Source: Buchnera aphidicola (Hyperomyzus lactucae)
GTDB lineage: Bacteria > Pseudomonadota > Gammaproteobacteria > Enterobacterales > Enterobacteriaceae
Assembly: GCF_005081705.1 (NCBI RefSeq)
Contig: NZ_CP034876.1
Span: 164,803 to 228,802, forward strand
Reading direction: 5' to 3'
Length of the DNA stretch: 64,000 nucleotides
The position numbers and the translations under genes were made by a program. This document shows, one piece after another, positions 37,556 through 47,105 of the stretch. How positions within the stretch are numbered: position 1 is the stretch's first letter; each line of letters starts with the position of its first letter. Below the pieces are notes generated by a model. The model ran no database searches. It was given only the letters and a program-made list of their open reading frames with translations, and was not told where the DNA came from.

Positions 37556-37562
37556 ATTTTTT

Positions 37563-37925
37563 TGGAGCTGGCGGGATTTGAACCCGCGTCCAAAATTTCT
37601 AGAAATAAAGTACTACATGCGTAGTTTTTTCTTTTTTTATTCATTTCCTAATTTGAAAAAACACATTTTAGGAACATAGTTTGAAAATTTATTCCGTGTC
37701 ATCATCAAACTTGATTTTCACGTTTTTCTCTTTTTTAACCTTCCTGTATTCTCGTCCTAAGAGAAAAAGGCTAAGAAGGAAGGGCTTTATACAGTTTTTT
37801 AAGCTGCTAAAGCGTAGTTCTGTTTATTATTTGCAGCTATTTTTTTACGGCTTTTATCGAGGCAAACCGTTCCTCGGCATGCACTTTATTTTTTTGATAA
37901 TTTTGTCAAATCCAAAAACAGCCCC
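37563..37925 (-). ncRNA. ssrA: Transfer-messenger RNA (tmRNA)
   Basis: Rescues stalled ribosomes. Read on the - strand, the 5' end GGGGCUG pairs with CAGCUCC at the 3' end, including the G3-U pair recognised by alanyl-tRNA synthetase. The T-arm GCGGGTTCAAATCCCGC is complete. The tag frame, preceded by AATAGCT, reads GCA AAT AAT AAA CAG AAC TAC GCT TTA GCA GCT TAA. The tag peptide is therefore ANNKQNYALAA, ending in the protease signal LAA. Several pseudoknot stems can be recognised, for example CCTTCCTTCTTAGCC with its partner. After the discriminator A (37563) the genome reads AAAA, so the CCA end is not encoded. The length of 363 is typical. An open frame on the opposite strand here is spurious. 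Confidence 0.95.
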
Positions 37926-44234: not shown

Positions 44235-46685
44235 TTATGATAGTGTGCGCAGCAAGTCAGAAAATACTCCAGACGCCGTAACATTGTTTCCGGCACCATA
44301 ACCTCTTAATACAAGGGGAATTGGTTGATAATAATTAGTATAAAATGCTAGTGCATTTTCACCATTTTTAACTTTATACAATGGATCATTAATATTAACG
44401 TCTTCAAGTTTTATAAAACATTTTCCATCCCGTTCTATTGTCGCAATAAATCTTAGTACATTTCCTACATCACGTGCTTTATTAATTCTTTTTAAAAAAT
44501 ACGAATCTAATTCTTTTAGTTTTAATAAAAATATGTCAAAGTTTTTATATTGTTTAAATATTTCTGGTAATAAAGGTTCAATTTTAATATCTTTTAATTC
44601 TATATTATATCCCGATTCACGTGCCAAAATTAGTAATTTTCTAGCAACATCTATCCCGGATAGATCATCACAAGGATTGGGTTCCGTAAAACCTAATTCT
44701 TTAGCTTCTCTAGTAGCCTCTGATAATAAAATACCTTCTTCTAGTCTACCAAAAATAAAAGATAAAGAACCAGATAATATACCTTTAAAACGTAGCAAGG
44801 TATCACCTGTTCTAAATAGATTTTGTAGTGTTTCTATAACTGGTAATCCAGCTCCTACGTTAGTTTCATATAGAAATTTTTTATTTGTTTGAGAAATAGC
44901 ACTTCTAATTTTTTTATAGTAAGTCCATTCACTAGTATTGGCTTTTTTATTTGAAGTGACTACATGAAAATCATGATAAAGAAAGTTTATATATTGATCT
45001 GATAATAGTTGATCAGATGTACAATCTACAATTACTGAATTTGAAAAACAATTTTTTTTGATTAAGTTGTTTAATATTTCATAATTGAATTCTTTACCTA
45101 ATTTTTGAAAATTATTTTTCCAATTAGATAAATTAATAATTTCATTAAAAAATAGTATTTTTTTAGAATTAGCAATAGCACAAATTCTAATTTCTATGTT
45201 TTTTTTATCTAAAAATTCTTTTTGTCTTAATATTTGATTTAGTAGTGTAGTACCAACTCCACCTATTCCAATTAAAAAAACATGAATAATTTTTTTATTG
45301 CAAAATAATCTGTTATGAACATTGCGAACAGCTTGTAAAATATTTTTCGTATCTATAACTAGTGAAATAGAATGTTCTGAAGATCCTTGTGCTATAGCAA
45401 GAATATTAATTTTTGATCTACCTAAAGAAGAAAAAATTTTTGATGCTATATTATGTTTTTTATAAATATTGGAGCCAACTACTGAAAGAATAGATAAACG
45501 ATTTGTTATTCTAAAGGGGTTTAATAACGAATCTTTTAATTCCAATTGAAATTCTTTATTCAATAAATATAGAATTTTTTCAATTTTATTTTCTAAAACA
45601 CAAAAATTAATTTTGTTTTCTGAAGATGATTGAGTAATTAATAATATTTTAATATTATCTCTTGATAATACAGTAAATATGCGTGGAATTATATTGCCTA
45701 CATCTTTTATATAATATCCGGATATATTAAACATTGCTATATTATCAAGATGAGTGACACCTTTTAAAAATTTTTTTTCAGAATTATTTTTTTGACAAAT
45801 TAAAGTTCCGATGGATTGAATATTTTCAGTATTCTTAATAAAACACGGAATATTAAATTGAGAAATGGGTTCTATAGTGCGAGGGTGTAAAACTTTAGCT
45901 CCAAAATAAGATAGTTCCATAGCTTCTTGATATGATATCGATTTTAATAAATGAGCATTAGAAACTTGTCTTGGATCACAAGTAAAAACTCCATCAACAT
46001 CTGTCCAAATTTCACAGCAATTTGCATTTAAACAAGCAGCTAATACTGCAGCAGAATAGTCAGAACCATTACGTCCTAACACTACTAATTCTTTTTCTTC
46101 GTTACCACAAATAAAACCAGCCATTAAAATAATAGAATCTTTATCAAAATGTATATTATTAATGCGTTTTTTAGATGCGGATATATCAACACTAGAATCT
46201 AGGTAATTGTCACCTATGGATAAAAAAGTTTCAACGGGATTAATAACAGTAACTTTATGATTTTTTGATTGTAAAATACTTTTCATTATAAAAACTGAAA
46301 GTATTTCTCCACGAGAAATTATAATGGCACGGATACTATCCGGACATTGTTTTAATAATGCTATTCCATGTACTATATTTTTCAATTCATCAAACTCTGT
46401 TTTTATTTTTTTTTCTATTTTTTGATAAGGAAAATTAGATTGTATATTTGAAAGATCGTTTATTAATTGAATGAATATAGTTTCTGCAATTTTTATTGTT
46501 TCTAAAATTTCATCGTTTTTAATTGTTTTTTCTATAATAGTAACTAAATAATTAGTAATTTTAGCAGGTGCAGAAAGTACTACTGCAATTTGATCAGTTT
46601 GAATATTTTTTTCTATAATATTTGATACGTGCAAAAATTTTTCTGCATTAGCTAGTGAAGTACCACCAAACTTTAATAGTTTCAT
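44235..46685 (-). CDS. thrA: Bifunctional aspartokinase I / homoserine dehydrogenase I
   Basis: Catalyses the first and third steps from aspartate towards threonine. The N-terminal aspartokinase shows [15 protein letters not shown] at residue 3 onward and [15 protein letters not shown] near 208. A central regulatory part (about 310-460) carries ACT-like segments. The homoserine dehydrogenase domain begins at about 470 with [16 protein letters not shown] and includes TNKKANTS and the [12 protein letters not shown] region. At 816 aa it is nearly full length (820). A GAGGA site (46697-46701) lies 11 nt upstream, and immediately above that is the attenuator-like leader. Confidence 0.97.
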
Positions 46686-46714
46686 ACTTTATAATTCCTC
46701 ATATTTATGTCATA

Positions 46715-46750
46715 AAAAACCCGCCCTAAGTTTATGAGCGGGTTTTTTTA
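46715..46750 (-). terminator. Attenuator-type terminator in the thr leader
   Basis: On the - strand a stem with core CCCGC (46743-46739) / GCGGG (46725-46721), extended by an A/T run, is followed by six T and lies only 30 nt before the thrA start. The gene further upstream (hpt) points away, so the only transcript it could stop is the thr operon's own. Five G-C pairs make it the most G+C-rich hairpin of the intergenic regions. The same position is held by the thrL attenuator in E. coli. Confidence 0.7.
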
Positions 46751-46777
46751 AAAAAAATAATTTTTGCCCACATCATG
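46735..46777 (-). promoter_or_regulatory. Candidate antiterminator pairing in the thr leader
   Basis: AUGAUGUGGG (46777-46768) can pair with CCCGCUCAU (46743-46735): nine base pairs including one G-U, with a single bulged U (46773). The second segment includes the 5' arm of the terminator, so the two structures exclude each other. This is the arrangement expected for transcription attenuation. Confidence 0.5.
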
Positions 46778-46832
46778 ACTAGTTATAATAATTAGAATAG
46801 CTATTCTAGTGAAGAGGCTATAAATAGACATT
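46749..46832 (-). CDS. thrL: Candidate thr leader peptide (27 aa)
   Basis: A small frame from ATG 46832 to TAA at 46751-46749 encodes 27 residues including RIAILIIIT, so six Ile and two Thr codons are clustered just upstream of the antiterminator segment. Isoleucine and threonine are the two amino acids that control the E. coli thr leader. Against it: no clear ribosome-binding site is seen, Ile codons are favoured by A+T richness, and the peptide itself does not resemble E. coli ThrL. The stop codon is close to the terminator, unlike the classic layout. The symbol is by analogy only. Confidence 0.35.
46794..46809. repeat. Perfect 16-nt palindrome in the thr leader
   Basis: TAGAATAGCTATTCTA is its own reverse complement. 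It lies inside the candidate leader ORF, over its first Ile codons. It could form a small RNA hairpin, or be an operator-like dyad for a DNA-binding protein. Confidence 0.6.
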
Positions 46833-46879
46833 AATATTTTTTATCAAAATACTTTAAAGTAATAATTTTGTTGATTTTA

Positions 46880-46910: not shown

Positions 46911-47105
46911 ATGATTATTAATTTTCAATCAATTAATTTTTATAACATAATGATCATTATTAGTGCAATAGCAAAAAAAATAAATATTTTTTTTATTGTA
47001 TATTAGAATGTAGTTCTTAACTATACTGTATATTTTTAAAAAAGATCAGTTTATTATTTTAAATTTTAATATTGTTTAATTAACATGAAGCATCTAGATA
47101 ATATT

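Follow-up and report, generated by a model that had tools for sequence, protein, structure and literature searches.

Whether a symbiont with a genome of 652,809 bases in three contigs can still carry an attenuator ahead of thrABC is the question raised by this locus of Buchnera aphidicola (Hyperomyzus lactucae), as the operon makes an amino acid needed by the aphid. In two papers, Buchnera is described as being without leader sequences or attenuators and attenuation is denied (PMC3091783, citing its reference 10; PMC3229713), and the first reports terminators predicted in none of 83 divergent regions, the type of region that holds the terminator described below. No paper on a Buchnera thr leader was among the matches listed in a literature search that fell short of most subscription journals, and such a leader is not mentioned in the accessible parts of PMC6867890, PMC8557413, PMC3571970, and PMC11109978. 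For a beetle symbiont, attenuation has been speculated on (PMC12508126).

The DNA analysed was a stretch of 64,000 nt, referred to here as the window. An earlier note had described on its minus strand, in this order, a short reading frame, a segment 2, a terminator with six T, GAGGA, and thrA. All of these parts were found; the layout stood as described, and the coordinates proved to be one base off, including those of the reading frame and the gap between GAGGA and the gene. We take this gene to be thrA, the name used in the earlier note. The parts of the leader are the following:

46748..46831, minus strand: thrL-derived open reading frame (ORF) from ATG to TAA, 27 codons with six Ile and two Thr, MSIYSLFTRIAILIIITSHDVGKNYFF plus TAA; its start is in register with Pantoea and Erwinia thrL and its stop has moved 3' to the terminator edge.
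46766..46845, minus strand: conserved leader block, made up of a 5' A/T-rich element AAAAATATTAATRTCTATT, a core AGCCTCTTCACTAGAATARCTATTCTAATTATTATAACTAG, and segment 2.
46767..46780, minus strand: segment 2, the 5' strand of the antiterminator, AGUCAUGAUGUGGG; RNA AGU-C-AUGA-U-GUGGG.
46730..46744, minus strand: segment 3, the terminator 5' arm and part of its loop, which doubles as the antiterminator 3' strand.
46714..46744, minus strand: intrinsic terminator, a 9-bp stem AACCCGCUC/GGGCGGGUU and U6.
46696..46700, minus strand: Shine-Dalgarno-like GAGGA of thrA, 10 nt ahead of the thrA ATG at 46685.
44235..46685, minus strand: thrA (aspartokinase-homoserine dehydrogenase), followed by thrB and thrC.
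46937..46970, minus strand: candidate promoter-like island TATTGCACTAATAATGATCATTATGTTATAAAAA, with an extended -10-like TGT-TATAAA towards thrA.

The terminator hairpin (46744-46718, with T6 at 46719-46714) had a folding energy of -13.7 kcal/mol, equalled by none of 40 dinucleotide shuffles. Across the nine divergent spacers of the window, with 18 upstream flanks in all, no other hairpin was as strong, the next reaching -9.3. Segment 2 paired with 46742-46734 (CCCGCUCAU) over 9 bp, or 12 bp counting loop pairs, and this antiterminator duplex was equalled by 3 of 500 shuffles. Folding of the 181-nt leader gave a z of -2.58. The claim that the hairpin has no other transcript to stop was borne out: hpt is divergent from thrA (47085, plus strand) and points away, for which reason the hairpin was rejected as an hpt terminator, and no other sense transcript was evident. 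The promoter-like island, which lies between hpt and thrA and holds the palindrome ATAATGATCATTAT, showed few changes in all 12 aligned macrosiphine-type spacers, and one of two patterns for it was matched in 27 of 36 genus loci. The sole Rfam match above cut-off in the window was tmRNA (37560-37925).

The case for homology with the enterobacterial thr leader rests on position and ORF register rather than on an Rfam score. The window leader sits directly ahead of thrA on the same strand, and its ORF, segment 2, and terminator all align with free-living thr leaders, the thrL sequence of Pantoea and Erwinia being MRNHSLNTTIIITTTITTGNGAG and similar. Aligned to Pantoea thrL from the start codon to GGC, the window ORF scored 39, a value that none of 2000 shuffles matched (maximum 21), and the maximum of Pantoea thrL against 3000 random 66-mers of the window was 35; with Escherichia thrL, 1 of 2000 shuffles was equally good. 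The codon content was rejected as proof of a thr leader, since six Ile in 27 codons is not above chance at 26% G+C (P = 0.13), and the register with Pantoea thrL carries the evidence instead. Rfam alone was also rejected as proof. RF00506 (Thr_leader) aligned across the window leader at 33.6 bits, under the gathering cut-off of 55, while the unrelated family csRNA reached 36.9 bits on the opposite strand. Thr_leader was over the cut-off in 92 of the 149 genomes searched in the family and in none of the 36 genus genomes; ten of the latter gave a weak match (E 0.001), which lay ahead of thrA in four (G000, G014, G023, and G027) and only elsewhere, at 28-30.5 bits, in six. Judged by sequence comparison, the window leader is a thr attenuator by descent, homologous to the enterobacterial thr leader, and in this sense the identity first proposed for it was upheld.

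The further proposal that the attenuator is complete failed at the peptide gene. Leaders of 36 genus genomes were read, and 18 of macrosiphine type, the window included, were aligned (set A1); the names macrosiphine-, Aphis-, and Sg-type are tentative clade labels based on genome lengths and clustering. The A1 start codon was ATG in eight leaders, ATA in eight, ATT in one, and ACA in one, with four changes from ATG to ATA along the tree, and two more leaders beyond the ten without ATG were frameshifted (L003 and L016). Inspection by eye showed an intact frame up to and including GGC in 16 of the 18 leaders, and of the six ORF indels four had lengths divisible by three; the frame scan left L009 and L030 unanchored and misplaced the anchor of L019, and the frames of L009 and L019 were taken by eye from A1. 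Parsimony on the ThrA tree placed 40 substitutions in 66 nt, six of them in the start codon. Synonymous changes were not favoured among the remaining 34 (10, with 9.54 expected, P = 0.50). The Ile and Thr codons gave no sign of selection, although the changes are few: of the 24 non-synonymous ones, 10 fell in these codons, which make up 9 of the 21.

The position of the stop codon also bears on the peptide. None of the 18 A1 leaders combined an ATG, an unbroken frame, and a stop at least 10 nt before the terminator. In the window, 3 nt separate the stop from the hairpin, compared with 22 nt in Pantoea (L067). Six leaders have an ATG with an intact frame: in L001 the stop ends 3 nt short of the hairpin, in L011 and L017 it overlaps the hairpin, in L015 it falls in the loop, and in L007 and L010 there is none before thrA. 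The footprint of a ribosome at a stop 3 nt from the hairpin would cover the 5' arm of the terminator. A ribosome finishing the window peptide would cover this arm instead of freeing it, so that the classical Ile/Thr read-out looks broken in the window. Classical ribosome-mediated Ile/Thr attenuation might nevertheless still work, at least in the window species and the other ATG lineages, and the window ATG, the open frame with its Ile and Thr codons, the frame-keeping indels and intact frames of A1, and the conserved A/T-rich stretch directly 5' of the start are consistent with it, as is the finding by eye that free-living thrL genes likewise have no clear Shine-Dalgarno sequence. However, with ATG in only 8 of 18 leaders and repeatedly lost, with synonymous changes at the expected number, with the Ile and Thr codons hit, and with stops just before, across, or inside the hairpin or absent before thrA in all six candidates, we find this rather improbable. 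On these counts, the peptide gene is decayed and is not the conserved part of the leader.

The two RNA helices fared better than the peptide. Terminator and antiterminator share segment 3 and therefore exclude each other, as had been claimed, and both were conserved in relatives. In A1, the nine antiterminator pairs were formed in 96.3% of cells, and 11 of 500 shuffles covaried as strongly. With the three loop pairs added, the 12 pairs were formed in 93.1%; covariation was 0.131 against 0.092 and six cells were compensatory against 2.2, and 0 of 500 shuffles reached either value; this covariation was carried by two pairs, and the number of covarying pairs was reached by 227 of 500. Sliding the partners by one column gave a score of 0.121, near 0.131, but 38% pairing. 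The terminator was 97.2% paired, and its own covariation was reached by 74 of 500 shuffles.

Computed folds agreed with these pairings in most leaders. Without the 3' arm, at least five pairs between segments 2 and 3 formed in 17 of 18 sequences, 11 in the 9-pair register and six in another, with none in L004, a leader in which a change to U-A is kept in both helices. At full length, at least five terminator pairs formed in 17 of 18; the exception was L019, whose terminator is weak (-4.9, 2 of 40 shuffles). On A1, RNAalifold proposed another outer helix that covaried little, and on 25 sequences it returned the terminator only; neither output was adopted. A 1:2 helix (AGCC:GGCU plus ACUAG:CUAGU) was 90.7% paired with zero covariation support, and the palindrome TAGAATAGCTATTCTA, taken as a hairpin, was 99% paired with no compensatory change. 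By pairing and conservation, a terminator and an antiterminator that are mutually exclusive are conserved in the macrosiphine-type clade.

Conservation extended over the whole block. Identity of the A1 block to the window was 0.81-0.99 in the other 17 leaders (at least 0.90 in 14, 81-86% in three), and the fourfold sites of thrA gave 0.51-0.69 in the same comparisons. Among 12 macrosiphine-type genomes, mean pairwise identity of the block was 0.83-0.97 per 20 nt against 0.67 at fourfold sites, and the 20-nt intervals peaked in the thrL core, at 0.94-0.97 compared with 0.76-0.86 in the terminator. Alignment of the 12 whole spacers picked out two islands, one promoter-like and the other comprising the block and the terminator. 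In close relatives, where both the G+C-rich stem and the mini-ORF had been expected to be conserved, the stem was and the ORF was not. A non-functional relic would account for the decaying peptide gene and for the 21 of 62 leaders that lack a terminator by the criterion used, but the block lies far above fourfold sites and most of the remaining spacer in conservation, and A+T mutation pressure would be expected to erode a G+C stem, which makes a relic scarcely credible. From these identities, the whole leader unit appears to be under selection as nucleic acid in the macrosiphine-type clade.

The block could instead act mainly as a DNA element, a promoter of thrA with the hairpin riding along. 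In eight Aphis-type genomes without a terminator (8 of 9 rows used), ATTAATATCTATTTATAAT is the best-conserved part of the block, at 0.95 against 0.77-0.88 for the rest and 0.75 at fourfold sites, and its region holds TATAAT. However, the spacing to -35-like and -10-like boxes differs among clades (by eye), another promoter-like island stands further upstream, and conservation continues into segment 2. In L024, which lies inside the macrosiphine-type clade, the terminator is lost and the core has decayed with it (0.71 identity). The promoter reading is accordingly very unlikely.

Outside the macrosiphine-type clade the terminator is more widespread than its partner. Counting hairpins with G-C pairs and a T-run, a terminator was found at the same place in 25 of the 36 genus leaders and, with the deeper genera of the Buchnera lineage, in 41 of 62, a figure that is biased upward because further genomes were added only for the three deep genera in which the first one carried the hairpin (g45 11 of 11, g91 4 of 4, g19 1 of 2; others 0 of 9). 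A+T-only hairpins in L168 and L172 were left uncounted, although they were reached by 1 and 0 of 40 shuffles. Outside genus g1, 50 family genomes gave no Thr_leader match, and the deep scan took in 47 of them together with three that did. Of the 26 leaders read, 14 belonged to other lineages and were left out; the remaining 12 were assigned to the Buchnera lineage, ten on the strength of an adjacent gene (hpt, dksA, or truA) placed as in Buchnera and two (L163 and L166) on map position alone; the lineage tree was a quick one in which long branches meet, and it holds no other symbionts. A duplex between leader and terminator arm was within the best 5% of shuffles in 15 of 41 leaders (13 of 18 in A1) and within 10% in 22 (18 of 18 in A1, 4 of 23 outside). 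With a longer arm, it was reached by 194 of 2000 shuffles in L152, 14 in L155, and 86 in L159.

Near the deep hairpins, a further structure was noted by eye. About 80-130 nt before thrA in L190-L192, a hairpin CACCUGAA..UUCAGGUU (L190) occupies the site expected for the CCUG/CAGG pairing of the ancestral thrL, with a compensated variant ACCUAAA/UUUAGGU in L192; segment 2 is gone there.

These counts bear on the possibility that the hairpin alone matters, as a bare terminator or a 5' mRNA element, that is, a fixed brake or mRNA stabiliser with no switching anywhere. Hairpins without segment 2 at the 10% level (L018, L020, L022, L023, L034, 9 of 11 in g45, and L190-L192 of g91) would fit this, and so would the g45 hairpins, of which 11 of 11 gained 2.8-7 kcal/mol in stability on the thr strand relative to the opposite one. 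This asymmetry is not general, however: over all 41 hairpins, which had been picked on the thr strand, that strand was the more stable in 25 and the less stable in 16, the four of g91 among the latter. In addition, the macrosiphine-type segment 2 and the terminator loop that partners it are conserved and partly covary, L155 has changed both helices together (CGAGCU/AGCUCG/GAGCU versus CGGGCU/AGCCCG/GGGCU in free-living leaders, one change kept in both), and the conserved core is left unexplained. A hairpin acting alone throughout is possible, although we consider it unlikely.

The reading that we favour, and hold to be on balance probable from the comparative sequence data, is a thr leader from a free-living enterobacterial ancestor that has been reduced to its RNA core and ends a fraction of transcripts before thrABC. 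Transcription would start upstream of the leader block, and the nascent leader would first pair segment 2 with segment 3 as the antiterminator. After synthesis of segment 4, its pairing with segment 3 could produce the intrinsic terminator, and the RNA would end near 46714, before thrA. The balance of the two structures would set the level of thrABC transcription; termination would be partial, and in most lineages the balance would be independent of ribosomes on the Ile and Thr codons. Other lineages retain the terminator alone, which may act as a fixed-level brake, and in some it is gone; a possible order of loss is peptide gene, then antiterminator, then terminator. Against the reduced RNA core stands the finding that the most constrained stretch, the thrL core, lies 5' of what both helices need. 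A more speculative proposal, which we put forward only tentatively, is that a translation-driven attenuator turned into a translation-independent RNA switch, in which the former thrL coding sequence would be a conserved non-coding sensor or folding-timer deciding between antiterminator and terminator.

For thrABC, the sequences contradict the published denial of leaders and attenuators in Buchnera, and the thr leader offers a testable case of gene control retained under extreme genome decay. Other operons were also inspected. No G+C-rich leader terminator was found ahead of pheA (30 of 36 genomes) or plasmid trpE, and a leuA-like gene on a plasmid contig (L254) has an A+T-rich palindromic hairpin (-9.5 kcal/mol) with a T-run starting 75 nt upstream. 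Ahead of hisG, a hairpin with a CCC/GGG stem and a T-run lies 66-106 nt upstream in all 30 genus loci examined (36 genomes); in G000 it is at L215:1276-1310, with a same-strand gene upstream at L215:365-904. Rfam gave no his leader match in the hisG leader.

Compared with known systems, the hisG hairpin resembles the thr leader in placing a hairpin and a T-run ahead of an amino-acid operon, with no leader peptide seen, but unlike that of thr it could belong to the upstream same-strand gene; it may be what is left of a his attenuator, or it may terminate that gene. A thr leader has also decayed in another insect symbiont, Serratia symbiotica, where the leader and its peptide are reported to be eroded or split from thrABC by an IS element (PMC4122931); in contrast to that description, the Buchnera RNA core is still in place and looks selected. 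With the thrL-thrABC attenuator of E. coli and Pantoea (RF00506), the Buchnera leader shares a homologous position, ORF register, segment 2, terminator, and U-run, and it differs in that the start and stop of the peptide are lost or displaced, whereas the core is conserved as nucleic acid.
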